Source: Pyrenula massariospora (taxonomy: Eukaryota; Ascomycota; Eurotiomycetes; Pyrenulales; Pyrenulaceae). From it: a stretch of DNA of 64,000 bases. A program made the position numbers and the translations under genes. This document shows, in pieces, positions 37,500 through 64,000 of this stretch. The notes under the pieces were generated by a model. The model was not told the origin of the DNA. It saw only the letters and a list, made by a program, of their open reading frames with translations, and did no database searches. Positions within the stretch are counted from its first letter, which is position 1; the number at the start of each line of letters is the position of its first letter. The stretch is taken from NCBI GenBank assembly GCA_021030905.1, contig JAGFMI010000007.1, positions 868,001 through 932,000 of the forward strand, in the 5' to 3' direction.

Positions 37500-39341
37500 C
37501 TACCTAAAGATAGCCTCTAGGTGCTTGTCTCCTCCCCGGATCGATGGTACAAACATATCCCCAGCGATCTCCACGTCTTCAATGCACGCATTTGATACTA
37601 CTAAGCGAGACTGTCCATCTTCACCACCGCCGCCAAAACGCCCGACTACGGCGCCAAGAGCCATGTACAGCTCTGCCCACGCGAGATTGATCCCCAGGCA
37701 CTGGCGCGCGCCCTTCGAGAACGAGACCAGGTAGCGCTCCAGCCCTGGATCCCTCACCCAACGTTCCGGGTCAAACTCGTCGGGCCGCGGAAACAGGACG
37801 GGGTCGCGATGGATGAGCACCGTGTTCATCGAGACCACCGTGCCCGGCGGGATGTCCAGGTCGGTGCCCGGCACGCGGAGCGTCTGGTCCGGGGCGACTC
37901 GCGGCAGCCGGGAGGTGACGCCGTACGAAAGTCGGAGCGCTTCTTTGATGCATGCCGTCAGATACGGCAGTTGCTCGAATTCGCTGAGCCGTGGTTGGCG
38001 GCCCGTTTCGGTCACTAAAGCTTGCAATTCTCCTTTCAAGCGCTGCTGAATGCTCGCGTGGGAGAGGATGTGAACCAGTGCAACGATAAGCGTCCAGGTC
38101 GTCGTCTCCGTACCGGCTCCGACCACTACCTGCCCTTCTTGCCATAGTCGTTCAAGCTTCTTCTCAGAATCGGGTATGTCCGAATCGAGAACGTCATGAA
38201 AGATGGTGCGGTTAGATCCCTTTTCTTGCGACTTGTTTGTCCCGTCTTGGATTTCTTTGATCTGAAGTTTCATCCTCTGCAGCCCTGGTTAGTGTATGTG
38301 GAAGAAAGGTTGCACGACAAGACATTAGGGTATCCTACTCGTTGAAAATGCACCAGTTTACTAAGGCTAAAAGGAATGGTCTTAGTGTAGTGCGCTCAAT
38401 GTTCGAGGAACGACCTCACCCTGGATTGAAGAATTTCCCGATCCACAACGGCAGCGATTGTAGCACTTTGAGAATCCAATTCATGTGTAGGACCCAGTGA
38501 CTCATGTTACTGGAGGATTCAAATGCCTCGCAGAAGACTGGGTCAAAATCCGGTTGTAGTAGAAGGTGGTCACACCGTGCAAATGCATACTCCATGACAA
38601 CATCTGTGGTGTCAATCTGTTAGCGACTTCTGCTTCCACCGCTCCATACTCTCATTATCATCTCACGCACTTACCATTAGTGAAAGCAGTGAACATTGGG
38701 AGTAGCGGAATGGGCTGCCTTGAAAACTTGAATTCTTCTATCCGTTCCATCATCTGGTCGACCTTGTCCTGAATCACTGGCTCCAGCCTGTAGACACTCG
38801 CCTTGGAAAAAAAGGGGCTCAGAACTGCCCTTCGCATTCGGTGAAGATCGTGAGGCACCGCACCGAGGACCGTATCAGGGGCACCAAACTGCCTTGTGTA
38901 CTTCAATATCTTGTCACGACGCTCCTTGCCACTAGCATATAGAGTCGTGTAGTAGTCTGGATCTGCGATGTGAATTTCGTTTGGGTTTATGCGAACAACG
39001 GGACCCTGGAATCTGTTATCAATATTGCTTTTCAGTGCGTGACGAGGCTGCTGAAGGCTCGGAACTAACATAGAGACGGTGCATTTGCTCAATTTTCCAA
39101 ACATACTTTCCGCCACGAATCGCGTCATGGTAGAACTCATACCTAAAAACTATGTCAAGGTGTTTGCCAATAGTAGTAGACAGACAGCTTACCAAGACGT
39201 AACAGCAGCGACCTTGGGGCCAGGAAAACGCGCGATAGGGCTAAGATATAGTCGATAGACGACTCCTACGACAGCATATGCTACAAAGGCAATCAAAGTA
39301 AGTAGGACAGTGTAGCTCCCAAGAAAAGGTTGCAAGGCCAT
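37500..39341 (-). CDS. Cytochrome P450 monooxygenase (cluster), six exons, 513 residues
   Basis: Exons are 39341-39193, 39142-39070, 39005-38675, 38603-38420, 38366-38339 and 38276-37500. The fifth is a 28-base mini-exon (LSKLVHFQR) set between CTTTTAG and GTAGGA. All joins keep frame (1542 bases). An N-terminal anchor (SYTVLLTLIAFVAYAVVGVV) is followed by the Pro-rich turn FPGPK, NDVVMEY, the I-helix AGTETTTW, the K-helix EALR and the heme loop FSKGARQCLG with Cys448. It therefore looks active and endoplasmic-reticulum bound. It is the leftmost cluster gene. In related PKS-NRPS clusters a P450 does ring expansion or hydroxylation; which applies here cannot be read from sequence. Confidence 0.93.
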
Positions 39342-40177
39342 GGCGTCGAAGTTGGCTTTTCCTGTCGCTTGTGGCGTCCCAGCCCAGGCATGAAGGGAAG
39401 AGTCTTCCTTATCATTACTCTTTACCATGAAATTCCCGCGATGACTTATTAACTCCGCTGACACGAAGGCTGCCGTGTCTCAGATAGGCGGCTGAGCCGC
39501 CGTTAGCGCGGGTCCTGAAGGCTGACGCCAGCCATTTAACGTTGGAGGTCGAGCTTGTAGGATGGTGTGGCGTATCATTGCCGTTGATCAGAATGAGTAC
39601 GAGCCGAAGGCCATCAGCCGAGATTATTTGGTCCATCAAATCATCTGGGAAGAGTTCGAATCCATCGACTGGTTTACTTTCCAAGCTAGGAAGCTCGGAT
39701 CGGAAGTAGATTTGCCAAGACCTGAAGTAGTTATGCCAAGCAAAATCATAGTAATTGGATGGGATGATTGATACGAAAACTATGAGAGGCAACGCTTCTA
39801 CTTGAAATGTCTGGTGATTCTATTCAATGACCATCTTGAGCCACTAGATCTAGAACTGCGTTCAATGCCTGCTTAAAGAGCGCGCCTTAAAAGTCATACT
39901 TAGAGATATATATGTAGAACAATAGAGCCAGAATTGACGTGATGGAAGAGACAGGCAGGGACTTTGCAATTAATCTAAAGTCGAAAAAGCAAACTGAGAC
40001 TCCTACACATAATCGGGAACCAATTTCGAAAATATAAGAACTACAGCCTTATTAGTTCGGATAGAATTGGATACAATGACTAGACCAGAGGAGATGGACA
40101 AAAAAATGGCATCACTGACCAATTATTCTTCATCCTGAGCACTGAAAGCAGCCTGGTTAGTACTCAACAGACACTGC
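39342..40177 (-). other. P450 promoter region
   Basis: This is the space between the P450 start and the 3' end of the transporter gene. Open frames here (for example 39415-39792 on the minus strand) have no motif. No further gene is seen. Confidence 0.45.
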
Positions 40178-41890
40178 TTAGATCTTTACGCGGAATAGCT
40201 TGCTTTCCCTGATTCTTTCACCGTATATGTAGAAAACAAATGGTAAAGGGATGAAAGCGACAGAGATGAAGCCGAGAACTGAGGTTCCCCAACCAATTCC
40301 AAGTTTATTGTACATGCTGTTGCCTGCTAGCGGCAGTAAAGCGCCAACGAGAGAACGAAGAACGGTGCTGGCAGCAATCACAGACGCGGAATAAGTGGTG
40401 TAAGCGTCAACAAAGTAGGTCGAGGTAGCCATCTACCGGACCCAGTGAGTGAGATGATTGAAGGCTTTGGGTTCCCTAGATTACGTACGTATGTGATGAC
40501 CAGGCCCGCACCTAGGAATGCTGTGCCGATGATGGGGAGAATCCAATGGTCTTTGTGCTCTGCTGTCCAACCGTACAAGAACAGCCCGATAGGCACGATA
40601 AAAGCGCCGATGATGAGAGTCGGAAGGCGATATTCGGGCTTTGGACCTCCACCATGTCGAGTCGTTAGGCTGCGGACTAATCTGTCTGACATAGCGGCAC
40701 AAAGAAAAAGTCCTAGTATAGAGCCAATACCAATCCCCAAGTAGGCTAGTCCGGCAGACCCAAGTGAGAAACCATATTGTCCCTGGAAAACTCGTGGAAA
40801 CGTCGTGAAGCAGAGGTATAAGTAGCCATATATTACCGCTGTATAAAGTGAAAACAGAAAGACGATTGGCATCAGTAAAAGCATCTTGAGTGGTCGGACA
40901 ATTGAAAAAGCAAAAAGTTCTTTTGCTGTTTTGCCTGTGTCTAATGCCGATCGAAGATTCGGATTTCCTGTTTCTTTTCGTAAACGTATAGTTTTACGTT
41001 TGAGAATCTCGTAGGGATATGATTCTGACATGAGGATAAATGTAAAGATACCAGTAACCCCAACCTATACCCCGAGTCAGGAAGCTCACAACATTATAGT
41101 CTTGTGTACTTTGACCTCACCGCAATGGAAAGAACCCAGAAATTCCAGCGCCAGCCAATCGCTGGTGTAATGTACCCGCCGGCTATCCAACTTGTTATCG
41201 TGTTGCCTTTCTTACAGGATTTTTCATTGATCAGACTCACCGATGGGCCCAACACTCGGTCCAAACAGCGGACCCAAAACCCATGCCGACATTGCAAGCC
41301 CACGTCTCTCGTGGGGTATCATGTCTGCAATCGAGCCAGCTCCTATGGTGACTGGGCAAGAGCCAGCGGCTCCAGCAAGAAATCGGAAGACAATGAGTGC
41401 ACCAAGATTGTTGGCCACTGCACAGGCAATGTTGAAGATCAAGAAGAGCACGATGCACACTCTGTAGAGTAAGACACGGCCATAAAGCTCTGACAAGGGG
41501 GCAATGATAAGCGGGCCAAAGACATAACCTAGAAGATAGACGGAGGTTACAAAAGCCGCCAGGACGTCGTTTGTGGAGTTGAATCGTTTCATGACGGCTT
41601 CGGTGCCAGGTGCAATAATGGTAGATCCAAGTGGACTGCGTAGAATGTCAGCCCTGCCAGAGGCAAATTGATTTTACCCACGAAAGGAAGGTCATGAATG
41701 AGACAATGGTCAGAGCAGCAAGCTTCTTCGTTCGCGGCCAGTTTAAGGGGTTTTCTGGATCATCTGGACCATCAAAGTCTACCACGCTGGGATCTTTGAC
41801 TGTGTCAGATGAACCCTTTTCATTAGATGCCGGTGTGCTTTCGACTGAAGACAGATCTCGGTCACCACCGTGTCGATCCTCGGCAGCCAT
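40178..41890 (-). CDS. MFS transporter, DHA1 drug:H+ antiporter type (cluster)
   Basis: Exons are 41890-41682, 41635-41241, 41182-41121, 41064-40489 and 40432-40178, with introns of 46, 58, 56, 56 bases and all joins in frame (498 residues). A polar N-terminus with DDPENPLNWP, the signature of fungal DHA1 carriers, is followed by about 12 hydrophobic segments, including the motif A region SELYGRVLLYRVC, a motif C-like GPLFGPSVGPI and AGGYITPAIGWRWNFW. The central loop is about 60 residues and basic. It is probably the plasma-membrane exporter of the cluster product or a self-protection pump. Confidence 0.93.
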
Positions 41891-42405: not shown

Positions 42406-43890
42406 TTACTCTAACACCCATTCCATCATAGAAGCGCAATTGCCCACTGGTTGTTTACAAGCCCTCAGTGCGAACCGTGGGTCGGCGGCCTTGAATAGAT
42501 GAATCCACTCCGCCCTCGTTCTCTCCCTCGCATTCAGTACAGCCATCATTTGCATATCTACTCCAACATTTAACCTAGTAATTGCACCAGTGGGACCGAG
42601 CCCTGCTTCAAACTGTCGTTTCTTACTGTCCCCATTGACAGTGGCCTCAACTATCGGATCTCCGCCATCAAGTACCAAATCCATGGTAACGATTCGGCTC
42701 TTTGCAGGGTCCATAGCCTCAACAATTCGGCGGATGATAGCAACGGCCTGTGCATCAGGCCATTTGTGGAGTGTCGTCCGCATGAAATAAACTTCGGCAT
42801 TCTTGACTGGCTGCTCGTCGAGAATGTTGTGAGGCTGGAAGACAATACGGTCCTTCAACTCGTTGGGGATATTATTGTGGAATTGTTTTTCTAGATACGG
42901 CTGGTTCTTATCCTGGACGATGAAGGCAAGCTGCGGGTTTTTAGTGGCTATCTCGATGGACAGGTGGCCTGCTATGCCGCAAATCTTGAATGATTTACTG
43001 TTAGCTTGCAGGACCAACAAAGGCGACCAGTACAAAGTAACTTACATCAACGACTGTAGCCTTGCCAAGCTTTGTCCAGTCGAAAGCTCGGTGCATGTCA
43101 GCTCCTTTGATGGCGCCACCGGTAGAAAAGAACTTGTCCGTATCTTGTAGCCTCCATAGCCGATATCCTTTGCCCTTGACACCGTTCCATTCTCCATTTT
43201 CATCCTCTTCCATAAGATTAAAAAAAGTCTTTTCCTCCCCAGGCTTCGCGTTGAGGTTTGGCCCTGTATACTTGGGATCTGTAGGGTCTCCCCACTTCAA
43301 AGTGGTCTCGACGCAATTATTTGCGTACCAGGGTGCCACCTCTTCAAAGTTGTGTATGATCCAGGCCCGGGCGAGCGGATTACCGATGGCGATGGCTGAG
43401 TTGCTGGTATGTGCGACGAAGCCTGGCTCTGGGGAGTAAAAGTAGTGTCGGGTAAAAGCTTGATTGAGAATGCGGCGAAGACGCGGTTCTACAAGGCCTG
43501 TCTTTTCGGACAGATCCGAGTAGGATATTGATCCCTTTGCTGGTACAGCATCGAAGACATTGAATCGGGCGAGGAAATGCAGAGCCATATCATCGTACTT
43601 GTTCTATGCCACCAGATTAACCTTGAAAGAGGAGATATAAATGTACTGGACACCCCTACATTCATGCAGTGCCATCTCAAATGGTCGGCAGCACCTATGG
43701 CCAGGTCTGCAAGGGCGGATGCAGCCTCAATAAGGTCAAGTCGAGCTTGCTGCACACGAGCATCTTCGGGAAGTTCCTTCGGACTATCTACGTCGAATGA
43801 TGGCTGGGGAAAATTGTGATTTTCGAGAAAAGAATCAATGGTGTTTACATTCTCGGAGATAGAGATAGCCAACTCCTTAAATGATGTCAT
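42406..43890 (-). CDS. O-methyltransferase-like protein (possible SAM-dependent pericyclase), cluster
   Basis: Exons are 43890-43660, 43603-43046 and 42984-42406, with introns of 56 and 61 bases; the protein has 455 residues. The N-terminal winged-helix part (YDDMALHFLARFNVFDAV, LRRIL) and C-terminal SAM-binding fold match fungal class I O-methyltransferases. SAM motif I reads VVDICGIAGHLS (residues 261-272) where the family normally has VDVGGGxG, so two glycines are replaced. The usual catalytic His region is FMRTTLHKWPD. In leporin-type 2-pyridone clusters an OMT-like protein with this fold catalyses dehydration and pericyclic steps instead of methylation. The neighbours (PKS-NRPS, trans-ER, SDR, P450) fit that setting. 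Methyltransferase activity on the product remains the plain alternative. Confidence 0.88.
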
Positions 43891-44326: not shown

Positions 44327-45192
44327 TTACCAAGGAATCGGAGTCCCGTCGTAGTTGACAAAGGTTCCAGAAACTGTAGCACGACTAGCGCTATCGAGCT
44401 AACATCAAGTAAGTGAGCGAGTATCGTTTATCTGAGGTTACAGAGCGTACCAACGAAGTTAGATTGCCGACACACTCTTGCACCGAGATGCCTTCAATAG
44501 GCACACCAAGCTTTACAGCGGCATCGGTGCGATTCTCAGTAGCCACGGATCCTGGATGGACGGCAAAAGCGATTAGATCTTGGTGCTCGAAATGCAGCCT
44601 TCGTATGAAGAAATTGGCGAGTGTTTTAGAAGCAGCGTAAGACCTAAGCGGAAAATGTGGATATCTTTCCATACCGTTGATTGTCGCCGCCTCCGCGGAA
44701 TTGAGGAGGAATATAGGCTTTGGTGACTTCTCGAGCAGAGGCCAGGTAGCCTGGAAGAGCCGCAGGACGCTAAAGGCGTTAATGTCTATGTGTTCCTGCA
44801 AATCGTTCAATTTCATGTGTAAGGTCGTCTGATGTGCCTGTGGATCGAAAATCCCCGCATTCGCGATGACCACATCAAGCTTCTTGACATCGTGTTTGGT
44901 AGTCAAGGCTTGAACGGCATCAAATGCATCCGTCTCTGAGTGCCCGTCTATTTTGACGAGAATGAGGTTGCTGCCGGAGCCTCGAGGGAGCGTGAACAGG
45001 CTCGTTGCCTTGGCCGAATGCGGGGCTCGCACTGATGCAATGACAGTGGTCTGGGACCGCTCGAGGTACTGCTGCACTAGGCCCCTTCCGATGCCTTGTC
45101 CATGACGATCAGCTCTATCATCCACGACGGAATAGGTAGTCGGTGGGTGGCGAACCTTTGTTGGCACCCGTAACGAGTACTGTCGTCGCCAT
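44327..45192 (-). CDS. Short-chain dehydrogenase (cluster ketoreductase)
   Basis: Exons are 45192-45156, 45094-44451 and 44398-44327, with introns of 61 and 52 bases and all joins in frame (250 residues). The first exon supplies the start of the NADPH motif: MATTVLVTGANK joins GIGRGL. NAG is at 91-93 in VIANAGIF, Ser145 in LLNSAEA, and Tyr165/Lys169 in SYAASK. The last exon gives the usual ending SGTFVNYDGTPIPW. In 2-pyridone clusters an SDR of this type reduces a ketone of the ring-expanded intermediate before pericyclic chemistry; that role is an inference from the neighbours. It shares an upstream region with the plus-strand flavoprotein gene. Confidence 0.92.
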
Positions 45193-45820: not shown

Positions 45821-47170
45821 ATGCCGTCGGACCAACTAAGGCTGATTGGCAAAGCCTTTGCCTTCATCATACCATATGCCGGCAGACTTCTCCTTCAACG
45901 AGTACAGGCCCTTTATCATCATTGGACTTACAAAGCTACGCCTACGCCCCAGAATGTTGTCGTTCTCGGTGGCTCTTTTGGCGGCATTGAGCTAGCAAAG
46001 CGCCTAGTCGAGACTCTGCCTACTGGCTTTCGGGTTGTGCTTGTGGAGAAGAATTCGCACTTTAACTATAGCTTCAACTTTCCGCGTTTCTCTGTGATTG
46101 AGGGCTACGAGCATACCGCATTTATTCCTTACGATGGTCTCGCTAGGGGGGCTCCATCAGGTATCTTTACTCACCTGCAGGACACTGTAGTCAACCTCAC
46201 CGATACTCATGTACTATTTGCCTCTGGCTCTAAGGTCGAGTATCGCTATCTCGCCATCGCGGCTGGCTCTTCCCAGCCGCTACCCGCCCAAGTCACCGCC
46301 ACCGAGCGTGATGAGGCGTGCTTGGAGTTGTGCTCGGTGCAACAAAGCATCAAGGACTCGCAGACTATCGCGATTGTCGGGGGTGGTGCAGTTGGTATAG
46401 AGCTAGCCACAGACATCAAAGAGTTCCATCCAACAAAAGATGTTACACTGGTTCATTCGCGCGGACAGCTTCTGAACCAATTCGGCCGACGTCTCCAAGA
46501 TTATGTCTTGACAGTGCTTCAGGAACTCAAGGTCCGTGTGTTGCTCAACGAACGGCCACAGCTGCCAGCGGGAGAAGCGCTGCATAGGGAAAAGACGGTG
46601 ACTTTTTCCAACGGCCGTACAGAGTCATTCGATCTTCTTGTGAGTTTCCAATCGCCCAACCAGTTAAATTGTGGCTAAAGTGGCCTACCTTAGATTGCTT
46701 GCACCGGCCAACGGCCCAATTCCTCCATTCTGGCCTCCTTTCTACCCAGCGCGATTTCCGAGAAAACATCGCGTATCCTTGTGAAGCCAACCCTCCAGAT
46801 TTCCGATACAGACAACTCTCGAATATTTGCCTTTGGTGACGTGGCCGAGCATGGCGGACCCAGGATGGCACGCGCCGTCTTCTTCCAAGCCCAAGTCGTG
46901 GCCGACAATATCCTTGCCATGGTTCGCAACCGCGTCCCTTCTAAAGTCTACTTGCCGAAACTGGACTTTGAAGGCGCCATCAAACTCTCGTTGGGCAAGA
47001 CGAACCACGTTACTTATTGCATGGATAACCAGGGGTCCGATCTCATGGTCGTTGGACACAACGGGAAGATTGACCTCGACATTGCTAGAGCATGGAGGCG
47101 GTATGGCGCCGATTTCAAAGCCACGCGCACCTCCGCTGACTCTGGGGACGTGCCTCTTCGCAAGAAATGA
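45821..47170 (+). CDS. AIF/NDH-2-like FAD-dependent oxidoreductase (cluster)
   Basis: Exons are 45821-46639 and 46694-47170; the intron GTGAGT...CTTAG joins ESFDLL to IACTGQRPN, giving 431 residues. The N-terminus has a hydrophobic stretch (FAFIIPYAGRLLL). The FAD-binding Rossmann motif is VVLGGSFGGIELA, the NAD(P)H motif is VGGGAVGIELA, and the second FAD contact is FAFGDVAEHGG. The layout matches fungal AMID/FSP1-like pyridine-nucleotide disulfide oxidoreductases without the redox-active CxxC. It would oxidise NAD(P)H with a quinone or a cluster intermediate as acceptor. Its place between the SDR and the synthase suggests a pathway role. It converges with the PKS-NRPS gene. Confidence 0.9.
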
Positions 47171-53800: not shown

Positions 53801-56800
53801 TACTCGGGCTCGAATCTTCGAAAGACATGGTTGTTGGGCAAGCAAGGGCGGATGTTACGGGACTCGGAGGACGAAAAGTCAATGACGACTTTTATATTGG
53901 CCGGGCAGTCTTGCTTGATGGAATTTTCTAGTGCGTAGGGGTGCACAGCTATCCAGCCCTTGGGCGTTGATGAGGCCACCTTCGACGTCGCAAAATATAC
54001 TTCTCGATCCTTCCAAGGGCTGCACCTCAAGATAGCCTCGGCTAGAGCCTCATGGGGCTCATACACGAGGATCGCACCGCTTCGGGGTATGTTGGAGAGA
54101 AGTCCACGTGCCGTTATTTGACCAGCCAGAGCCTTTAAGGTCGATGCTTCCTTGTCCGATGGTAGATCTACGAGGAGGATATTGCTAGACTTACAAGTGA
54201 TGGAGGACCTGTTTATTTTAGACAGCGCAACAGCCTTGTAAGATGTTTGCGCAACAAATCCGTAACAGATGAAGTACTCCTGATCTTCAAGTGGAAGCGA
54301 CACTGACAGTTGAACATCGAGTAGACTATACTCTGGTTTGATCTGGTTCTGGGAAATTTGGTCAGTTGCTTGTAGCGAGACAACACCTTCGGACGCCATG
54401 AGCTCGACAATGGAGTTTTGCAGGGACGTCTCCTTCAAGACAGCGCGACGCCCAGCATTGTATCGTTCATTGCGGCTTGCGTCTGGTACGACGCGAGGAA
54501 TGAGAAGCCTTCGACCGTCCCAAGCAAGCTCGGGTTCTGTTGTCCACAAGATGTCATTCCCAACATAGTCTGGCAACTTGCTTAATGTCAATCGAAGGAA
54601 AGATTCCACTATAATCGTTGGCAGGGGCTGTGAAGGTTTTCGAATGTCCAAGAACTGTAGATTAATGTCCTTGTTTTCTGTCCACAGCGCGCGTCCAATA
54701 CCCACAAACATGTTGGACTCTGGGTTATCGGAGCTGCACCCTGTTGTGACCCAAAGGATACTGTCAGATGCTGCCAGCAGCAGCTGGATCTTTTCAAGTC
54801 TTTCCGCTGTAACTTGATTTGCAAAAAATGGCTGGTCTAACTCAGTCAGACTAATCACTGACACACGTTCTCCCTTCAAGTCCTCGCTGTTCAGGTGATT
54901 AATGTCAGAGACGGCACTGATCGCCGCCTTCCAAGGAGCAAGCATATTCTTCAGATCTCGTATCACCTTAGCGACGGGCAAAGTTTCTCCACCTATGATC
55001 AATAGTTTTTGCGGGGATGAAATGTGGCTTAAATATAATAAAGGATTTCGTAGAACGTTTGCTTTTTCGTTTACAGCCTGGCTGACGATCGTGCAAAAGG
55101 AACGCTTGGTAGGGTTCGGCATGTCGAAATCGATAGAATCTACGCCAGAAAATCCGTTTGCTTGGAGGATCTCGTCCCACTGTGGAGGCGAAATACCAGG
55201 GCTCCATCGCCGACCCTCATCGCTGACTTGAGGTCCAAACCACCACCCTGTTAAAGTACCCATGATGAAGCCGAGCCTTAGAAGATCCCCTGTGAGCTCC
55301 ATCAATACCAGATAACCACCCGGTTTCAATAGACGTCGAACATGCCGCATGGTCTGCCCCAAGTAGCGTGTGGCATGTAGAACGTTAGCAGCGACAATAA
55401 CATCGTAGGAACCCTCAGCGAATCCTTGTTCGACAACATCCTTTTCAACATCGAGGGTTTTGAAGACCATTTTATGCCGCTTCTCTTCAAATTTCTTGGC
55501 GGCCTTTTCAAAGAAGCCTGAAGAAATGTCAGTGTATGTATAAGAAGAGAACGAGTCTCCGATTGCGTCAAATAGTTTTTTGGTGGTGCCGCCGGTCCCA
55601 GCACCGATCTCGAGAATATTCGCCTGCGGATATCTGTGAGTAATCTGGCGCAAATATCGTGCAATGTACTGATTCAATAGTACAAATCCACTGCCTTCCT
55701 CGTAGAATCGGTTAAGCATGCCATTTTCCATCATAAGTTCCAAGACTTGCTTTTCGCCTCGCACAATCGAGCTTAGGTTTTCACCTAGTGCCTGCATTAG
55801 AACAAGATCTACACTGTCCTTGTGCTTGTCGGAAAGTTTGAAGACGGTCTCTCTCGAATCCCGCATCCATTCAGGTTTTACCGTATGGTGCCGTCCAGCG
55901 CGGATGAGGTCGAGTTGGTGCCGTGCAGCTCGGACGAACAATTGATGGTGCCATTGGAAGTTTTGGACTTCGCGGTTCGATATTTCATCGAATAAAGCTC
56001 GATAGTAGTAGAGCGCGGTCCTTTCCGCGGCGTCGACCATGTCCTCATCCTCAACACCAAGTTGGGGCTCCTCGTTGTCTGTGTTGGTAGAGATGTCGAA
56101 GTCCCATAAGGTTTTGGAAAACCATAGGCGATCGGTGCTGGCTTTGGCTTCGGAGGCTGCAAGAAGCTGTAAACCTTCCACCTGTACACCAACACGTGAT
56201 CCAAATGAAATCTGGAGATCTCCTTCAAGTGATCTCGCCGACGAAGTCGTAACAATAGCATTAATCTGGGCCGAGATTCCTTCCTCAACGGCTTTAGGGC
56301 AATTTCCTAGATCTATGGTTGCTCTTCGAATGCCAACAGGCAGATAAGGCGCCCACATTTGGCCGCTTGATGGAGACGCAAACGCTGCGAAAATGGCATG
56401 GAACCCTACATCTAAGATAGAAGGATGTAGCGAGTAGGAATCTCCAAGCTCCGCTGCTTCCCAGGATGCTGCTGCTGATGCGTATGCTAAAGTACGGTGT
56501 GCAGACTTCATGCCCAGGAAAGGGCCTTGGTAATCGAGGCCAAGCTCCCTGAGTGAGGCGTAGAACCTTTCGATATCTACGGGCTTTAGGGTCGGCGGAA
56601 CTTTAAGTTGCGACAGGGGCTCGTCGCAGGAGCTGCCACCCAAGTGGATGTGGACACGGCCACTGCAAGTTCTTTCCAGCGTCTCGCTCGCATCATCAGA
56701 GACGATATAGCAGACAAACTCGGCGGACACAAAGAGGCCATCTTGAGGCAATGCTGATTCATGAACGCGTCGAAGAGTAGTGATGAGTTCCGAAGAACGA

Positions 56801-59800
56801 CTCTCCTGCAGGATAACGGCCCTCGGCACCTTCATGTCGAATAGCTCAACTAGCCTCAATGGCTGGCCGTTGGCCAAAACCTTCAAAGCCTCTATAATGG
56901 CTGATACGTAAGCGGCTCCCGGCAGGATGATCTGGCCTTGAAAGACATGGCACTTGACCCAGGGAAATTCATTAGGGCGGAGTATATTGCGCCATCGCAT
57001 TTGGTCATGACTGTCGTCCGAAACCCTTCGACCGAGGAGCTCGTGGCTGTTATGATCGCGAAGACGTAAGTTGCGCGAGAGGCGAGATTCCTTCCAATGG
57101 ACCCTGCTATGATCCCAGCAGTAGGTTGGGAGCCCTTTGACCAAGCGCGGTGGCTGGGAATCACTAGTGGCAAAGGCACGCCGGTAGCCCTCAAAATCAA
57201 CGGACGATCTGGATCCAAAATGCTCCCAAAGGTATCCAATACCCCCGGAAAACGCTTCGATTTCATCATCATTACGTCTCATTGTACCGAAGTATGGTAA
57301 AGATGATCCCAGAGACGACTTGAATATCTGAGTAGCTGGACCCTTGAGCGCTGGATGCGGCCCGACCTCTATTACGATATCGAAAGGACCGGCAGTCCAT
57401 AAAGCACATTCAATGGCGGGAGCAAAAAGTACCGGTGATAACAGATTATCTACCCAGTACTGATCCTTGAGAGTTTCCAAGTCGTTGACCAGTAGCTCCG
57501 AATCTCCGCGAACACTCGATATCCACGTGCATTTCTCAGAGGGAGGAACAACCTCGATCTTGCACGCTTTCAGGGATTGGAGATAGGCAGCGGCGCTCGG
57601 CTTCATATGATGAGAGTGATACGCAGTATCGACGGCGAGCTTCCTTGCAAACGTCTTCTCCTCGTCAAAGTATGCTTTAGCTTCATCGATGGCGTCCAAG
57701 TTTCCAGATAAAGTGACGCTAGATGGAGCGTTTGCGGCGGCGACACTGATCCGTCCAGCATACTCAGGACGTGCACAGAACTGTGAGGCATTTTCAAGCG
57801 AGATCCCGACCGCTAGCATCCCTCCGCTCTGGCCAATAGGTCCCTTTGCAAGATTGGCATGAAATCCTCGGTAGTAGGCAATTCGAATAGCGTCCCAAGC
57901 GGAGATGATCCCCGCTGCATACACTGCGGCAATCTCGCCAGACGAATGACCAACAACAGCTTGGAAATTGACGCCGCATGCCTTTAAGAGATCGACAGTA
58001 GCGATCTGTATTGCCGAACATAGAGGCTGCGAGACTGTTGCGTCTTCCACACGCGAGGTGTCCTTTCCAGCCATGAGCTCTTGCTTGAGCGACCACTGAG
58101 GCGCATCAGTTTCGAGTGCTGCCAGCGATGCTTCACAATGCTCAATAGATTCCCGAAAAAGGGGACAGTGGGCGACAATGTTGCGGCCCATGGAGACCCA
58201 CTGGGCGCCTTGTCCGGTGAAGATGCCAAGTATGGCGAGCGGGCCGCGGGTAGTGTTTTGAAGTGGATGCGTGGCGCTAGTGCTTCCAGTGGGAGTGGTA
58301 GCGGCGTCTTGAGCGTAGGAGTCCATATAGGAGAGTAGCTTCTCACGCGTAGCACCTGAGAAGAAAGTGCGAAAGCCGAAGTCAGAGCGCCGACTCTGTA
58401 ATGTCCATGTTAAGTCTGCGAGGTCGAGGTATTTGTCTTCTCGGATGTACTTGGCGTAGGCTTTAACTGAAGATACCAAAGACACCTTGCTGTTGGCTGC
58501 AAATGTAAGTGGGCCCACGAAGCGCTCATCCTGGAGAAACTCCAGTGACTGCTCCTTGCGATTATATTGTGCAGCATCGAAGCTCTCAAGGATAACATGG
58601 GCGTTGGTTCCACCGAATCCAAAGCTATTTACACTAGCCCGCAAAGGTGTGCCGGCAATCTCGGGCCACGGCTGAGGCTCAGTAGGGACTTCAAGACGGT
58701 CGTAGAAAGGAGCAATATCGGGATTTAGTTCGGTGAAGAGCATGTTGGGTGGGACGATTCGATTTTGTATAGCAAGCGATGCCTTGAGTACTCCCGCTAG
58801 ACCAGCGCAACCCTCAAGGTGTCCGATGAGGGTCTTGATTGAACCTACTAATAGCTTTCCCGGCGCCGATTGGTTGGGCGGTTGTTGAGCATCCTCCTCA
58901 GGAAAGAACGCGTCCCTTATTGCTCGGGCTTCTACAGGGTCTCCGGCTCGTGTTCCCGTTCCATGGACCTCGAAGAACTGGCAGCGGTCAACCAAGGGAT
59001 CCAAAGCAGCGTCTCGGTACGCCTGCTTGATCAGAGCTGTTTGAGCCAAAGCGCTTGGAACAGTTATGCCTTTAGTACGTCCGTCAGAGTTGACTGCCGT
59101 GCCTCTAATTACAGACTCGATGTGATCTCCATCACAAATTGCCTGGTTTAGGGGCTTCAGGACAACTGCCGCAAAACCCTCACCTCGAGCATATCCATTG
59201 GCCGAACTATCCCACATCCGGGAGCGAGAATCCGGCGAGAGCATATGGAGGTTCGACTCGGCAATAAACATCGTTGGATCTACGATGAGGTTGGCGCCTC
59301 CGACTATGGCCAGTTTGGACTCGCCATTTCTTAGACTTTGGACGGCTTGGTGTAGTGCGACCAAGGAGCTGGAGCATGCCGTATCTATAGTCATAGAAGG
59401 TCCCTTGAGGTCAAAAAAATACGAAACTCGATTAGACAGAATGCTTCGCGCTGTTCCGGTTGCGAAATATGTTGGGATCGTCTCGATATCGCGCTCTTGA
59501 ATATTTTCAAAATCCCCATTCATAAGCCCGGCATACACTGAGGTGAGCGAACCTTGGACTTGGTCCAGAGGGCAGCCAGCTGATTCCAGTGCTTCATAAA
59601 CCGTTTCTAGAAGTATACGTTGCTGAGGATCCATCTCATCAGCTTCGAGCGGGCTGATATTGAAGAACGACGCGTCGAAAAGACGCGTATCTTCGGATAG
59701 CAAATAGCCCTTGGCCTGGACGTCGGTGCTGCCATGGTGTTCGCCATTTTCATGGTAAAACTTGGAAAGATTCAATCTCTCCGAGGAGAAAGAGCTCAAG

Positions 59801-59901
59801 ACGTCCTTAGGGTCTCTGAGGAGCCCCCACAGCTTGGATGGGGAGTTTGCATTGCCGGGAAAGCGACATGATGAGCCGATGATGGCGATTGGTTCGGACA
59901 T
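47851..59901 (-). CDS. Hybrid PKS-NRPS megasynthase, intronless, 4016 residues
   Basis: Domains in order: KS (about 1-430; Cys176 in DTACSSS, His in EVHGTGT), AT (Ser653 in GHSSGE), DH (His985 in CHVFQGQIILPG), C-methyltransferase (LEIGAGTGGTT near 1430), a degenerate ER stretch without an NADPH motif (about 1800-2100), KR (GMTGDLGQS at 2118, Tyr2257 in GQANYHAAN), ACP (Ser2435 in GFDSLL), C (HHIIMDG near 2716), A (YTSGSTGTPKG at 3191, NCYGPTETS, NGKVDR), T (Ser3609 in LGGSSLL) and a terminal R/Dieckmann-type domain (LTGSDTFLG near 3690; Tyr3835 and Lys3839 in GYTASK). All carrier and catalytic residues checked are present. It should build a methylated, partly reduced polyketide, join one amino acid and release a tetramic acid or aldehyde. 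The dead ER is served in trans by the neighbour at 60538. Confidence 0.98.
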   Translation of the reverse strand: MSEPIAIIGSSCRFPGNANSPSKLWGLLRDPKDVLSSFSSERLNLSKFYHENGEHHGSTDVQAKGYLLSEDTRLFDASFFNISPLEADEMDPQQRILLETVYEALESAGCPLDQVQGSLTSVYAGLMNGDFENIQERDIETIPTYFATGTARSILSNRVSYFFDLKGPSMTIDTACSSSLVALHQAVQSLRNGESKLAIVGGANLIVDPTMFIAESNLHMLSPDSRSRMWDSSANGYARGEGFAAVVLKPLNQAICDGDHIESVIRGTAVNSDGRTKGITVPSALAQTALIKQAYRDAALDPLVDRCQFFEVHGTGTRAGDPVEARAIRDAFFPEEDAQQPPNQSAPGKLLVGSIKTLIGHLEGCAGLAGVLKASLAIQNRIVPPNMLFTELNPDIAPFYDRLEVPTEPQPWPEIAGTPLRASVNSFGFGGTNAHVILESFDAAQYNRKEQSLEFLQDERFVGPLTFAANSKVSLVSSVKAYAKYIREDKYLDLADLTWTLQSRRSDFGFRTFFSGATREKLLSYMDSYAQDAATTPTGSTSATHPLQNTTRGPLAILGIFTGQGAQWVSMGRNIVAHCPLFRESIEHCEASLAALETDAPQWSLKQELMAGKDTSRVEDATVSQPLCSAIQIATVDLLKACGVNFQAVVGHSSGEIAAVYAAGIISAWDAIRIAYYRGFHANLAKGPIGQSGGMLAVGISLENASQFCARPEYAGRISVAAANAPSSVTLSGNLDAIDEAKAYFDEEKTFARKLAVDTAYHSHHMKPSAAAYLQSLKACKIEVVPPSEKCTWISSVRGDSELLVNDLETLKDQYWVDNLLSPVLFAPAIECALWTAGPFDIVIEVGPHPALKGPATQIFKSSLGSSLPYFGTMRRNDDEIEAFSGGIGYLWEHFGSRSSVDFEGYRRAFATSDSQPPRLVKGLPTYCWDHSRVHWKESRLSRNLRLRDHNSHELLGRRVSDDSHDQMRWRNILRPNEFPWVKCHVFQGQIILPGAAYVSAIIEALKVLANGQPLRLVELFDMKVPRAVILQESRSSELITTLRRVHESALPQDGLFVSAEFVCYIVSDDASETLERTCSGRVHIHLGGSSCDEPLSQLKVPPTLKPVDIERFYASLRELGLDYQGPFLGMKSAHRTLAYASAAASWEAAELGDSYSLHPSILDVGFHAIFAAFASPSSGQMWAPYLPVGIRRATIDLGNCPKAVEEGISAQINAIVTTSSARSLEGDLQISFGSRVGVQVEGLQLLAASEAKASTDRLWFSKTLWDFDISTNTDNEEPQLGVEDEDMVDAAERTALYYYRALFDEISNREVQNFQWHHQLFVRAARHQLDLIRAGRHHTVKPEWMRDSRETVFKLSDKHKDSVDLVLMQALGENLSSIVRGEKQVLELMMENGMLNRFYEEGSGFVLLNQYIARYLRQITHRYPQANILEIGAGTGGTTKKLFDAIGDSFSSYTYTDISSGFFEKAAKKFEEKRHKMVFKTLDVEKDVVEQGFAEGSYDVIVAANVLHATRYLGQTMRHVRRLLKPGGYLVLMELTGDLLRLGFIMGTLTGWWFGPQVSDEGRRWSPGISPPQWDEILQANGFSGVDSIDFDMPNPTKRSFCTIVSQAVNEKANVLRNPLLYLSHISSPQKLLIIGGETLPVAKVIRDLKNMLAPWKAAISAVSDINHLNSEDLKGERVSVISLTELDQPFFANQVTAERLEKIQLLLAASDSILWVTTGCSSDNPESNMFVGIGRALWTENKDINLQFLDIRKPSQPLPTIIVESFLRLTLSKLPDYVGNDILWTTEPELAWDGRRLLIPRVVPDASRNERYNAGRRAVLKETSLQNSIVELMASEGVVSLQATDQISQNQIKPEYSLLDVQLSVSLPLEDQEYFICYGFVAQTSYKAVALSKINRSSITCKSSNILLVDLPSDKEASTLKALAGQITARGLLSNIPRSGAILVYEPHEALAEAILRCSPWKDREVYFATSKVASSTPKGWIAVHPYALENSIKQDCPANIKVVIDFSSSESRNIRPCLPNNHVFRRFEPEYVEPENQACAFSEVLAHAYADVLAASISEDEPALVPVQNIFGSSLSTVAYPTVVDWRQHSPVKVAVKPLATDGMFSPSKTYFMVGMTGDLGQSICGFMINNGARHIVITSRRGQVDPTWLESMERKGAFIRVYKMDVTSRDSIMLTYDEIKRSMPPIAGVCNAAMVLQDKLFLDMDADMLNNTLKPKVNGSKYLDELFSKATLDFFVFFSSVVAVSGNGGQANYHAANLFMESLTANRRARGLAASVIHIGMVVDAGYVVRAGRKFEDYLRKLFFMPLSESDVHHLFAEAIFASPAESQVNADICMGLEPFKDHPDAQSRPPWYTNPRLAHLIVKSEGDLEDQRQKSGTVVSIKRNLEEAESPEVAHFILQKSFSSKLESMMQLDPGSVNLNVPLLDLGFDSLLAVEVRAWFLKEMDVDIPILRFLSGDTVHEICLDAASQYLSMRADGIQKEATTTALEAIRETAQDDSESSAVSREGEGNSSSPGNDSHSESDIAKYTSSMSQLTGSGTPFSTHSDDARTTSTSVSPLTPASMNDAGSGLFASPRVRDIIKVEEMSYAQSRLWFLAQYLDDPKAFNIAISYSINGRLDKPRFQSALAKIMSHHMTLRTCYYSDPDSGKPSQGILWSAPSSLKYIETSEQKDVDQEFSSLQNREWDLDYGDTFSATLISRGEEFHTIIFGYHHIIMDGVGWYIFLQDLKRAYEMKPLSPARKQYIDASVEERRAVERGEFDDQIGFWKSKYAQLPEVIPFLPIASATSRRQLRRYNSHTVNREAGAKLVAEIKNASRALRVTPSHFHLATIQVLLSKLLKMEDICIGVTDANRSDESLANTMGFFLNLLPLRFKFKQNEKFSDLVQRTSKEVLDGLKNSKVPFDVILENLRVPRDASYSPLFQIAFNYRVGAMAELSFGECQMHLESLKDAENSYEIGFGIFETPAGSCSLQITCQSYIYSRDAGNLLMDAYVNLLEGLSSNFSLKVSEYALFDKAKAQEGLLLGTGRRKTWDWPDSLSERVDAMIAYHENSNAIIDENGELTYAQLSNKIEKVVAAIQEKKCPPGSPVATLCQPSTDLVVSMLAILRQGHIYVPLDVNVPRSRQAAILADCKPALLLCHQDTQEDACHLLDSSTSVVNVSDLSTTATVRTLSPRIARSKEPAFLFYTSGSTGTPKGILLSQFGFVNHLALKTEKLSLGQEMVLQQSSFGFDMSLTQIFCALANGGTLVIVPQRSRGDPVELSRLMMEHKVTFMIATPSEYSMLLRYGEESLRRCSSWKHACMGGEVITQQLVQSFSALNNRHLNLTNCYGPTETSLAASFERLPINSSQLINMPDLASVGKVLPNYSIYIVDEACQPLPVGYPGEICIGGAGVGLGYLNLPQLTKSKFVHNPFASKEDVVRGWTKMFKTGDRGYLCADGSLVFIGRQEGDTMIKLRGLRIDLEDIASTIKQAAPELIAEAAVIVRGEPQALIAHVVPHTGKEESINRAALWSLSQSLPLPAYMRPAVIAPLDRLPLTPNGKVDRGALGSIALPTLPYEDDGSGEMLSIEEGELFLIWEEVLSQATTSKVAIKRDSDFFLLGGSSLLLMQLQGAIKETLGVQVPINDLYKASTLGRMAALLSGRKEQQDPMESIDWVKETHYSGSPSSFPTTEDSPIKNSRREILLTGSDTFLGAELLQTLIDDSSVRKIHCVAFPVNATKKVPRSNKIVRYPGTLHASTLGLSREDIATLQAQVDLIIHAGSVGHCLNNYSSLRTPNLQSLRFLTDLALPRRVPIHFRSSNRVVLLSGQQSLPPIPVSQHFPPLDGSEGYTASKWAGERFLENVARETGLEVCIRRHCAVTGESAPREDALNSLLRFTLLQRAAPRFQNFAGYFDFRDVGEVARQIVGQALHGSGGAVKRDDAAAWIAEVCPSVKSMTVVHHSSGVKIPVGRFAQRMEEIHGEEFQEVEIAEWIAGAKKKGLDPLISTYLEALIQRDEVISFPYIGERLEA

Positions 59902-60537
59902 GCTGGCGGAAGAGGCGGAAGAATTGTCACGTGATTAGAGCCAAGACTGCGGATTTAACTTTTATGATTGATCGCACTGCGGCAACTAGATATATACAAT
60001 GGGCACCCAGTGCCATGAATGCAGCTTCAAAAATATGGCTGCAATCTTGAATTTCGGCGGTGTACTGGCCTGTGTAGAAGGCGTGGACATGTAAGTTAAC
60101 TGCCTGAGTGCCACCTAGTGACGCGTTTTACTCAAGTAAGGCGGTGAATCGTGCTCACCATTTCTGGAATGCCGACAACACGGGAAAATTGGCTGTCCGC
60201 CGCAGAAGATTCAATGTAGAGGCTCATGTGCACACTGCAATATTCCGAGAGGCTGACGGGAATTTGTTAAATAACTTGACTCAATCTTTACTAACTCCGG
60301 CGTGCCGTCGGCGTGTATTCGCTCGTTGCTCATAACGCAATTCGTTTGGTAAGACAGAGCCGAGCTCATTCGACAAGTGTGAGCTCCTTTGCCATCACAT
60401 TGAGATCTCCACATATTGATTCGAATGTAAATAGATCCGCCAAGACTGAAGAAGGGGGGAAGAGAACTGAGAACGAGAACAACAATAGCAGAATTAAACC
60501 GAAGATTCTCTAGCCACACGGACCTTCTTCCGAACAA
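59902..60537. promoter_or_regulatory. Divergent promoter of PKS-NRPS and trans-enoyl reductase
   Basis: 636 bases separate the two starts, which fits co-regulation of partner enzymes. An inverted CGG triplet CGG-N4-CCG lies at 60298-60307, the type of site bound by Zn2Cys6 factors. No gene is seen, and no cluster regulator is encoded in the window. Confidence 0.5.
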
Positions 60538-61656
60538 ATGGAATCCCTCCCTTTAGTTCAACAAGCTCTCAAGGTCTATGGACCAAGGCACGTCAGGCTG
60601 ACTGAGGGGTGCGAGCTTCCACAACCTGAGCATGATGAGGTCCTTGTACGAGTGAAGTGCGTGGCGCTCAACCCGGTTGATGCAAAGGCGCTCGACATGT
60701 CTCCTATGGTAGGAGCGACGCTTGGATGCGACTTCGCCGGCGACCTGACCTTCATCGGTCCGTCAGTCACGAACCACCAACTAAAGATAGGAGACCGGGT
60801 CTGCGGGTGCGTCTACGGCAATCACCCTGATCGGCGAGATAATGGTGCTTTTGCTCAGTATGTTGCGGTTCCTGGCGACCTGATCTATCGACTGCCGCCT
60901 GACATGTCGTACCAGAAGGCGGCAAGTCTCGGAGTAGGGATGTCGACAGTAGGAATGGCATTGTACCATGCATGGAAACTACCTTTACCGTATGGGACGG
61001 TCGAAGCATCAATGTCAAGCAGAATGGAGATGAGCCCTTCTATAGCGTCCAACCACCAGTCATCTTTCGCACTCGTCTATGGGGGAAATACGGCGACAGG
61101 GGCTTTGGCGCTGCAGATGCTGCGGAAATCCGGTCTTGTTCCAGTTTCTACATGCTCCTCCCGAGCTTTTGATAGAGTGAAGGCGCTAGGTGCGGCAGAA
61201 GTCTTCGACTATCAGTCCCCAACCTGCGGCGACGAAATCAGACGCTACACTGGTGACAGACTCTCGTACGCCCTTGACTGCATTACAAATATAGCCTCGA
61301 TGAGGATTTGCTATGCGGCCATAGGCAGCGGGGGTGGCAAGTACATGGGTCTGGATCCGTTCCCCATCCGAGCTCATACGCGTCGCGACGTCAAGCCAGA
61401 CTGGATCTTGACCTTCACCATGTTCAACAAGGCCCTAGACCTACCGCGCCCATTCGGAAGACCTGCGAGACCGAAGGACAGGGCATTCGCCGAGAGCTGG
61501 TTTCGGGGCACGCAGATAATGTTGGACACCCCTGGCCAGATCGAAACGCACGCCATTGAGGAGGGTGGAGTCGGATTAGCTGCCGTGGTAAAGGGACTCG
61601 ATAGGATGCGTAAGGGCGATGTGAAAGGAGTCAAGGTGGTATACAGGCTTTCATAG
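60538..61656 (+). CDS. Trans-acting enoyl reductase for the PKS-NRPS
   Basis: A single-exon, 372-residue MDR/zinc-free alcohol-dehydrogenase-fold protein of the LovC/ApdC/TenC type. Motifs include DEVLVRVKCVALNPVDAK, GCDFAG, DRVCG, GAFAQYV, the NADPH loop VYGGNTATGALALQ and a substrate-side segment PFPIRAHTRRDV. No zinc-ligand cysteines or histidines are seen in the usual places. It supplies the enoyl reduction that the degenerate ER region of the synthase cannot do, acting on selected chain lengths. The divergent arrangement with the synthase is typical of such pairs. Confidence 0.94.
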   Translation: MESLPLVQQALKVYGPRHVRLTEGCELPQPEHDEVLVRVKCVALNPVDAKALDMSPMVGATLGCDFAGDLTFIGPSVTNHQLKIGDRVCGCVYGNHPDRRDNGAFAQYVAVPGDLIYRLPPDMSYQKAASLGVGMSTVGMALYHAWKLPLPYGTVEASMSSRMEMSPSIASNHQSSFALVYGGNTATGALALQMLRKSGLVPVSTCSSRAFDRVKALGAAEVFDYQSPTCGDEIRRYTGDRLSYALDCITNIASMRICYAAIGSGGGKYMGLDPFPIRAHTRRDVKPDWILTFTMFNKALDLPRPFGRPARPKDRAFAESWFRGTQIMLDTPGQIETHAIEEGGVGLAAVVKGLDRMRKGDVKGVKVVYRLS

Positions 61657-62763
61657 CGCTTAGTTGGCTCCATCTCATCATTACCTACGCTTGGGCATCG
61701 GCGCTCGTTCTGCATGATTCATAGTAGCTTTCGGTAGATGAAGCATTCTTCGGAAAGCTCGATGATTTAAAAATATTCGTTTGATCGTGACCTTGTCGCT
61801 TGCGACTCATTAGCACAACCTTACTAGATGGGATAGTCGAATATGCGACTTTTAGCAGAATACTTGATCTATATTATATTTCCAGTCCATTAATCGAAGT
61901 GAGAGACATCAGATGACTCTTACACCATTCCGAAATGCTTGAAACCGTACTATTGCTCGGACCCCTATCGTTTCCAACACTAAATAGATTTCTTGTTGCA
62001 ATAATACGACAAGCCACCATCAATTCCTTATCCCGCACCACGGTGATCAGGCATAGACTAAGGTATCCTGCCGCGTCTCACCTCGTGACAAACGATGGCT
62101 GATCGCTCTGATATGCATTGGTACGTAGCAATTGGTAAATAGGTTTTCTTGTACTCCACGCTATCTTTTCTCCCTGAGTATCTTACAGGGCCGTTGGAGA
62201 GTTTGCAACGAGTATTCAAGGATGTTTTGTGATGTCTCGGGCTCCCTAAGCCGGAAAACACCCGGATTCTCTGGATATTACTAGCTTTTCGCAAGATGTT
62301 CATTCCTTACATCGTCCCTCAAGGCAAAGATGACGCTATAGACTCTTCTATAGAGATTTTAATTTTCGGGTGCGGATTGATCTGACTTGACCTCTGTGGC
62401 ATTTGAAAGATTCGCTCATCGGTGTACTGCCCAGTATAGCGAGAGATATGCCTTGAGTGATGATATGTATCTGCATAGTTTTAGAGCAAGACACCCACGT
62501 ACTCGTCATGTTTCTAATCTAACTTCGTAGGTAGAGTTCATCATTTGGGTAACAGCCCTCAATTCCACTGAATTTGAGTGACTTTCTGTCTATTATGAAG
62601 AGAATTTAATTTCCAAAGGACCTAAAAGACCATTGGAAAAGGCTAAGTGGTCTTATGCAAGCCAAATACCTTCACACATTCTGCTGTGAACATGTCTAAT
62701 TTTTCGCGGCCATGGCCGATGATTTTGTAGCATCTTCCAGGCAATCCACGGCACCCCGAATTA
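61657..62763. other. Convergent intergenic space
   Basis: The 3' flanks of the enoyl reductase and cytochrome b5 genes. About 1.1 kb, AT-rich, no gene or repeat recognised. Confidence 0.5.
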
Positions 62764-63307
62764 TCATAAAACAATGACACTGGAACTTCGCGTGTAGCGA
62801 TATATCGCCATAGCCAGTGCGCTACATAAAAACATGACAAGGTATAATCCGACACTCGACTGCGATTGCCCTGATTTGGCTGCCATTTTCGATCCGGCTT
62901 CGACCCTAACTGGCTCAGGCTGGCCTGACTAAAGAACAAGATAACGTTAAGCAGCCGAACCAAAAGATTTCGAAAGCATCTCATAAACTCACCGCTCCCT
63001 CGACGACACCGACCTGGAGGGTCGCAAGGACCTCTCGTGCCTCGTCGCTGTGACCCACGTCCTCGAAGTCCCCGCTGGCGTCCTGTCCCGCTTGGTCAAG
63101 CAAAACATCCTCACCACCCCTGTATATAGAGTCTCAGCAAAAAGAAAAAGAAAAAGAAGCTCCTTTTCTAGCTAGGTGTCGGGAACATACTTACGGATGC
63201 TCATCGATGAACCGCGTCACATCGTACACTCTGTTGTGGATGACGAGGTAGAGGTCGCTCTTCGTTCTATGTTCGAACGCTTCCGTCCGTGTGAATTGCT
63301 TAGGCAT
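62764..63307 (-). CDS. Tail-anchored cytochrome b5 (cluster), three exons, 134 residues
   Basis: Exons are 63307-63195, 63119-62993 and 62928-62764; introns 75 bases (GTAAGT...ACAG) and 64 bases (GTGAGT...TTTAG) join in frame. The start [18 protein letters not shown] leads to [19 protein letters not shown], giving the first heme-ligand His in HPGG, and [10 protein letters not shown] gives the second. A short polar linker is followed by the hydrophobic anchor [17 protein letters not shown] and a tail YTRSSS. It would be an endoplasmic-reticulum electron donor to P450s or other oxidases. No exon is long enough to stand out as an open frame. Position beside a P450 suggests a dedicated redox partner. 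Confidence 0.9.
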
Positions 63308-63773
63308 CGCAGCGAAGGGAACAATGAGGGAGCATGAGCGCCGCCCCCTACTCAAAGATGACAGCCATATCGAGAATGGATGTCTGGCGGGGGTTGCGGT
63401 AACTCCACAACTTTTTGGAGCGGGACGTTGTGTTGCACGACATGCCGTACCGGCAGCGTCCGAGACATCACGGTTTCCGTGGACCGGGGAATGGGTAGGA
63501 ACATAGGTATTGTGGTCTCGGAGATAAGAAGCTTAGAATCCTTTCTTGCAGTGTTACTAAGCTAACAGCAGTACACTTGCCAGTAATGGTAAGAGGCTCA
63601 GCTCTTGGTAATATCTTATATTCTATGACAGATCGGAGATAACTGCATCTCTAAGGACGCTGGAAAAGGACTGGTGCACTTTGCTTTTATTGTCTTTACG
63701 CAAACGAGTGATATCAGAATCAACTCTGCGGTCTATTTAAGGTAATTCCGTGGAGGGTGTTGAATGACTGCTC
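63308..63773 (-). other. Cytochrome b5 promoter region and P450 3' flank
   Basis: The space between two minus-strand genes. No gene is supported. Confidence 0.45.
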
Positions 63774-64000
63774 TCAGGCTGGCATGACGGCAATTTTGAC
63801 CCCGTTTGTGTTCACGGGTCCAACCCGCATAACGGGAATATAGCCTTTGGAATCCCGATTTTCGATGGTTTTGAAAAGGCGAGCAAACCTCGCAACCATG
63901 TAGCTCGCTTCAGTGGTGACCAAGAGTTGGGCGGGACAGCGTCTCGGTCCTCCTCCAAAGGGCACAAAATTCCAATAAGGACGTAGATTATTCCATCGCT
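63774..64000 (-). CDS. Cytochrome P450, CYP52-like, C-terminal end only (cut by window)
   Basis: The frame enters from the right edge and ends at TGA 63776-63774. Visible sequence runs RWNNLRPYWNFVPFGGGPRR, then CPAQLLVTTEASYMVARFAR, with the heme-ligand Cys in FGGGPRRCPAQ. The CPAQ form with the following TEASY helix is typical of CYP52-type fatty-acid or alkane omega-hydroxylases and relatives found in metabolite clusters. About 75 codons are seen, roughly one seventh of a P450. It is the second P450 of the cluster and lies next to the cytochrome b5 gene. Confidence 0.9.
   Translation of the reverse strand, partial: RWNNLRPYWNFVPFGGGPRRCPAQLLVTTEASYMVARFARLFKTIENRDSKGYIPVMRVGPVNTNGVKIAVMPA

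Follow-up and report, generated by a model that had tools for sequence, protein, structure and literature searches.

A gene cluster of Pyrenula massariospora with a PdxI/HpiI-type pericyclase and an FSP1-like flavoprotein, predicted to direct the synthesis of a 4-hydroxy-2-pyridone alkaloid

A window of 64,000 nucleotides from the fungus Pyrenula massariospora (assembly GCA_021030905.1, 37.8 Mb in 33 contigs; contig JAGFMI010000007.1, positions 868,001 to 932,000, forward strand) contains most of an intact biosynthetic gene cluster whose product, judged from the genes, is probably a 4-hydroxy-2-pyridone alkaloid akin to pyridoxatin and fusaricide. The 2-pyridone class is favored because a pericyclase with an O-methyltransferase (OMT) fold, of the PdxI/HpiI type, is encoded beside a polyketide synthase-nonribosomal peptide synthetase hybrid (PKS-NRPS), a trans-acting enoyl reductase (trans-ER), a short-chain dehydrogenase/reductase (SDR), and three cytochromes P450, as in the top cluster of Tolypocladium ophioglossoides. 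A first-pass annotation, made from the letters of the window, had proposed a leporin-type pathway to a tetramic acid or 2-pyridone, and had pointed to a flavoprotein and a cytochrome b5 as signs of a possibly new product. That reading is partly supported: it was right on the class of compound, imprecise on the subtype, and unsupported where it took the flavoprotein for a gene that does not belong in clusters of this sort. Gene modeling and Pfam searches yielded a cluster of about 33 kb with about 11 genes, which reaches beyond the window edge; every gene listed in that annotation was found, with its reading frame complete after splicing. The cluster joins a known pyridone cluster type and is larger than first described.

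The best matches of the pericyclase in the Protein Data Bank were entries 7bqj, 7bqk, and 7bql, which we take to be PdxI, and the HpiI entries 7bqo and 7bqp; they cover residues 2-455, with E-values of 1.5e-210 and 1e-206, and the next match is partial, at 9.1e-26. Identification of the first three entries with PdxI is supported because the protein has Val413 and Lys337, in the same numbering as in a review (PMC8159843). Full-length similarity to PdxI and HpiI, exceeding that to ordinary O-methyltransferases, thus characterizes the window protein. Membership of the LepI type was considered and rejected, as LepI aligns only partially (E 1.5e-12), best over residues 256-365 and more weakly over 392-448. 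At the level of identity, the protein is 66% identical over its full length to both HpiI and a PdxI-like protein of Aspergillus bertholletiae. The search behind these values covered 5.8 billion proteins, of which the 7998 best candidates were scored and 16 rows returned, the best at 66% identity; it was incomplete, as the window’s own protein, UpiI, and EpiI are all missing from those rows. The genome holds one copy of the pericyclase gene, and no other long match exceeds 31-32% identity. An AlphaFold model of HpiI (mean predicted local distance difference test score 70.6, poor at approximately 165-245) was not used. Given these full-length matches at such E-values, and an open frame of 4016 residues for the synthase, the locus is not a product of chance.

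Key residues were read from an alignment of 11 family rows, the query included, with three outgroup methyltransferases (fragments P0011, P0012, and P0016 were excluded). His161, presumably a catalytic residue, occurs in 10 of the 11 family rows and in none of the outgroups; only P0010, whose gene model spans 393 residues, does not have it. Lys337, an active-site residue according to the review (PMC8159843), is present in all 11 family rows and in none of the three outgroups, each of which has Asp instead. According to the same review, the active sites of PdxI and HpiI differ by a single residue, near Lys337: Val413 accompanies the Alder-ene reaction and Met the hetero-Diels-Alder (HDA) reaction (PMC8159843). 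The query has Met409 at this switch position, as in the HDA subtype, and not the Val of the Alder-ene enzymes PdxI, AdxI, and ModxI. Met is also found in HpiI, P0006, P0007, and P0009, as well as in both outgroups that have a letter there, and Val in P0001, P0003, P0004, P0005, P0008, and P0010. From the Met at the V413 position, together with the retained lysine, a ring closure of the hetero-Diels-Alder, fusaricide type is predicted.

A tree of the OMT-like protein, a check suggested in the first-pass annotation, places it in the PdxI/HpiI family and not in an unrelated one: the 11 family rows form a clade with support of 100/100 against the three outgroups. Within this clade, the query lies outside a nine-row group (100/99) that includes the PdxI-like P0001 and HpiI, and only P0009, from a Logan contig, branches deeper (94/98). 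Arg332 is kept in the query and P0009, as in the three outgroup methyltransferases, while the other nine rows have Ser or Ala. Two changes at the switch position suffice on this tree. Read together with the outgroups, it would make Met the ancestral and Val the derived state, gained once in a seven-row clade (98/93), with P0006 reverting to Met; this comes from few sequences and from a tree with two open forks, the program warned of long outgroup branches, and EpiI, UpiI, AdxI, and ModxI stand outside the tree. A literature search on how the Alder-ene switch arose did not turn up the term ‘ancestral sequence’.

Two other views of the ring-closing step have to be set against this prediction. 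The pericyclase could act like PdxI despite Met409 and give an Alder-ene product of the pyridoxatin type, as it belongs to the same family and keeps K337; moreover, the V413M exchange in PdxI lowered the Alder-ene product by more than half, total loss not being stated (PMC8159843). We consider this unlikely, since the review assigns Val to the Alder-ene enzymes and Met to the HDA ones (PMC8159843). More doubtful still is a leporin-type cluster, in which the pericyclase would resemble LepI and the product leporin. The kinds of enzymes are the same in the leporin cluster, where LepI is likewise an OMT-fold pericyclase, and HDA belongs to the chemistry of LepI too (PMC8159843), so that the Met at the switch, which predicts HDA, would fit; however, LepI is a distant and partial match, whereas the PdxI and HpiI entries match at full length at 1e-206 or better. 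As a label, ‘leporin-type’ is imprecise.

The synthase contains, according to Pfam, KS, AT, DH, MT, KR, ACP, C, A, and T domains and a reductase-like end; of the 26 Pfam families matched, the 25 displayed include no enoyl reductase. Its MT-KR stretch aligns with LovB and PsoA, and the aligned part of LovB is, we assume, an inactive enoyl reductase; the ‘dead ER’ described at first reading is thus supported. PsoA provides the nearest match for the C-terminal domain, and LovC for the free-standing trans-ER. KS loci are numerous in this genome (115 exon-level matches), and one further KS, at C28:1924046-1924801, lies in an open frame of 4131 residues, a size compatible with a second PKS-NRPS hybrid.

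In PMC7421883, a trans-ER, a pericyclase with an S-adenosylmethionine (SAM)-type fold, and a reductase beside the hybrid synthase are features of pyridone clade Ia-D, and all of them are found here; the type I-alpha enzyme of that paper is LepI, not PdxI. Clusters of that clade also have a ring-expanding P450, for which three P450s are candidates here. The pathway may be outlined as follows. The PKS-NRPS and the trans-ER would form an acyl tetramic acid, which one P450 would expand to a 2-pyridone. The SDR, a candidate ketoreductase in the role of PdxG/TopH, would reduce the side-chain ketone, and the pericyclase would dehydrate the resulting alcohol to a quinone methide and then, with Met at the switch position, close the ring by a hetero-Diels-Alder reaction. 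The two other P450s may add oxidations, perhaps with the help of the cluster’s own cytochrome b5, while the major facilitator superfamily (MFS) protein would export the product and the Zn2Cys6 protein regulate the genes. P450c is the favored candidate for the ring expansion, as the oxygen-activation region seems to deviate most from the usual form there. The I-helix motif is normal in P450a, and the pattern searched for is absent from both P450b and P450c.

Comparison with described systems places the cluster more closely. With the pdx, epi, and hpi clusters (PdxI, EpiI, HpiI) it shares the pericyclase, with K337, as well as the PKS-NRPS, trans-ER, SDR, and P450s; it differs in the branching position of the pericyclase and the retained Arg332, and in an additional cytochrome b5. 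The top cluster of T. ophioglossoides shares the PKS-NRPS, the OMT-like protein, the SDR, three P450s, the trans-ER, and a C6 regulator; it consists of eight genes, to which the window adds the MFS transporter, the flavoprotein, and b5 (PMC10609478). That cluster is pyridoxatin-type, and its OMT reportedly shares 99.6% similarity with the Alder-ene enzyme AdxI (PMC10609478). No near-identical cluster was found in the protein searches, where the best OMT match was 66% and the best full-length flavoprotein match 65-66% identical.

The flavoprotein, described at first as AIF-like, has FSP1/AIFM2 as its closest solved relatives (residues 45-411). It shares with them the whole two-domain FAD/NAD(P)H body, which lacks a CxxC or CxxxxC pair (Cys167 and Cys171 form CxxxC), and glutamate and histidine residues that lie 18 positions apart and align with a Glu and a His of FSP1 at the E156/H174 spacing; both FSP1 residues are described in PMC10516921. 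It differs in the location of its gene in a biosynthetic cluster and in its N-terminus, which begins MPSD and lacks the glycine that is myristoylated in FSP1/AIFM2; because this glycine is missing, the protein is named only ‘FSP1-like’. In its own genome it is single, with the next match at 31%. Most likely, it is an NAD(P)H-dependent quinone-type reductase that either takes part in the pathway or protects the producing fungus.

A flavoprotein of this kind seems to be a standard component of many PdxI-type clusters. Co-occurrence was assessed for 11 of the 16 pericyclase rows, with HpiI (no contig) and the distant P0013-P0016 set aside, and a flavoprotein row was counted as a partner if it came from the same organism and a contig of identical size (for P0004, from the Logan contig). 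Partners accompany at least 6 of the 11 PdxI-type enzymes (P0001 with P0022, P0003 with P0023, P0004 with P0020, P0006 with P0031, P0007 with P0057, and P0008 with P0037), which removes the flavoprotein as a sign of a new product. For P0005, P0009, P0010, P0011, and P0012, no partner was found among the 120 of 520 flavoprotein rows listed, which is not evidence of absence. In two Monosporascus strains, pericyclase and flavoprotein have consecutive locus tags (DL766_004430/004431 and DL769_002070/002069), and the Logan contig bearing P0004 and P0020 is just 3073 bases long. In another Logan row, P0113, the flavoprotein is joined to a stretch that shares 51% identity with the T-R region of the window synthase, a join that may be a fusion made by gene prediction. 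Among the matches listed, flavoproteins also come from U. reesii, presumably the source of UpiI, and from A. bombycis and T. ophioglossoides. The latter two species are linked to PdxI-type pathways in PMC10609478.

Pairwise distances of pericyclases and flavoproteins, in seven pairs including the query, correlate with r 0.94, a value reached by 6 of 5040 permutations; with one Monosporascus removed, r is 0.90 (4 of 720). Shared species history alone could explain this correlation. In a flavoprotein tree made by a quick method (37 rows plus the query, from 40 fetched of the 120 listed), all six partner rows fall into one 18-row group (Shimodaira-Hasegawa-like approximate likelihood ratio test 89), and the query lies outside it, at a place that the tree does not settle. 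The basidiomycete flavoproteins P0033 (Exidia), P0030 (Mycena), and P0053 (Favolaschia) are placed among ascomycete ones, which hints at horizontal transfer.

Taken together, we tentatively propose that the flavoprotein is a regular member of PdxI-type clusters, serving a redox step or protection, and that HDA with Met is ancestral, the Alder-ene reaction having arisen via one Met-to-Val change. Several observations weigh against the overall reading of the cluster. The query pericyclase not only stands outside the P0001/HpiI clade but also departs from seven core relatives at 24 positions that these have in common, and its selectivity could thus be another one; EpiI, in turn, may branch as deep as the query, because its identity to PdxI (66%; PMC8159843) equals that of the query to P0001. 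The 18-row flavoprotein group is interspersed with rows for which no PdxI-type partner is known, such as those of the Fusarium solani group, A. alliaceus, and Pseudogymnoascus, and the flavoprotein clade also occurs in the Fusarium solani group, Mycena, and Pseudogymnoascus without a PdxI-type row in the incomplete search. Finally, the co-induced set of T. ophioglossoides consists of eight genes without a flavoprotein, other genes tested there not being induced (PMC10609478), which speaks against an essential catalytic role. Among the papers listed in literature searches on these clusters, none was found to name an AIF/AMID-like gene, although supplementary gene tables may mention the flavoprotein.

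A non-catalytic role would be in keeping with the lack of a flavoprotein among those co-induced genes (PMC10609478), and possibly the protein serves self-protection, as an FSP1-like NAD(P)H:quinone oxidoreductase that keeps redox or respiratory harm from the pyridone in check. Its closest solved relatives, the E156/H174 equivalents, and the lack of the cysteine pair are consistent with this function, whereas an N-terminus without glycine at position 2 implies that it is not myristoyl-anchored as FSP1 is. That flavoprotein and b5 together perform added oxidations and mark a new product appears rather unlikely: three P450s leave room for extra oxidation, and no b5 counterpart was seen on the contigs of other clusters among the 120 of 1885 b5 rows listed, but b5 carries electrons and is not itself an oxidase, and a flavoprotein that is frequent beside PdxI-type enzymes is by itself no mark of novelty.

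The remark that b5 is not part of the basic set stands. As a conserved cluster gene it was rejected, with 0 of 11 pericyclase contigs, compared by length, represented in those b5 rows when inspected by eye; the rows are mostly ordinary b5 proteins and hence weak evidence of absence. The protein has a heme domain and a hydrophobic C-terminal tail (the latter judged by eye), as microsomal b5 does, and the database proteins most similar to it are common fungal b5s, with about 50% identity. The nearest paralogue in its own genome, on contig C29, is 54-59% identical by exon and is split near the same residue, which suggests that the cluster b5 is a local duplicate of microsomal b5. The apicidin F cluster, in which a gene is called ‘cytochrome b5-like’ or ‘b5-like reductase’ in PMC4109984, offers a loose precedent.

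The features of the locus are collected in Table 1. Gene models were built from six-frame translations and splice signals, and ten proteins and the synthase were scanned against Pfam. All splice sites are predictions, with transcript support for none, the weakest being those of the SDR and of the regulator; in b5, several acceptor sites of the second intron are equally good. For P450a, a model with a 145-nucleotide intron was dropped in favor of one with a mini-exon, and the match to PF00067 (E 1.3e-57) comes from a scan of an earlier 503-residue model. Both P450s noted in the first pass are present, one of them leaving the window, and a third P450 and the regulator lie just outside.

Table 1. 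Genes of the cluster in window coordinates, continued beyond position 64000 where needed
Feature	Position	Strand	Description
P450a	37500-39341	-	513 aa, 6 exons (one 28-nt mini-exon); heme motif FSKGARQCL; I-helix AGTETT
MFS transporter	40178-41890	-	498 aa, 5 exons; PF07690 E 1.6e-45
OMT-fold pericyclase, PdxI/HpiI family	42406-43890	-	455 aa, 3 exons; H161, K337, M409
SDR	44391-45192	-	246 aa; PF00106 E 2.4e-21; intron model weak (donor GTTCGC)
AIF-like, FSP1-like flavoprotein	45821-47170	+	431 aa, 2 exons
PKS-NRPS hybrid synthase	47851-59901	-	4016 aa, one exon; KS-AT-DH-MT-(ER0)-KR-ACP-C-A-T-R*
Trans-acting enoyl reductase	60538-61656	+	372 aa; LovC E 1.7e-73
Cytochrome b5	62764-63307	-	131 aa, 3 exons, hydrophobic C-terminal tail; PF00173 E 1.3e-23
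P450b	63774-65461 (runs past window end 64000)	-	528 aa, 3 exons; PF00067 E 1.3e-47; heme motif FGGGPRRCP
P450c	66180-68190 (outside window)	+	nine exons
Zn2Cys6/Fungal_trans regulator	68361-70689 (outside window)	-	single intron, weak splice sites

On the right, Bax-inhibitor, EMC1, and sodium-symporter genes follow the regulator and set the limit of the cluster, and on the left an ankyrin gene and an SDR gene (35724-36890) precede P450a. The latter is GC-rich and adjoins the cluster, of which it is possibly the left-most member and possibly a mere neighbor. Beside P450a, at 37106-37201, lies an inverted repeat with 38-nt arms, 95% complementary, and a 20-nt gap; it belongs to a dispersed family resembling miniature inverted-repeat transposable elements, with 59 genome matches from 40 candidate places scored, one place often being matched on both strands. 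Additionally, a 16-nt motif, CTGTCCAAAATCTGGT, occurs at 34202-34636 in five irregularly spaced copies, 88-100% alike.

Few enzymes choose between the Alder-ene and the hetero-Diels-Alder reaction, and an early-branching natural member of their family helps to polarize the switch. The flavoprotein accompanies these enzymes across distant fungi, yet it is absent from the top gene set, a gap that can easily be tested. If its proposed membership is true, it would either supply a missing redox step on quinone-methide or hydroxamate chemistry or be an inbuilt safeguard for the producer.

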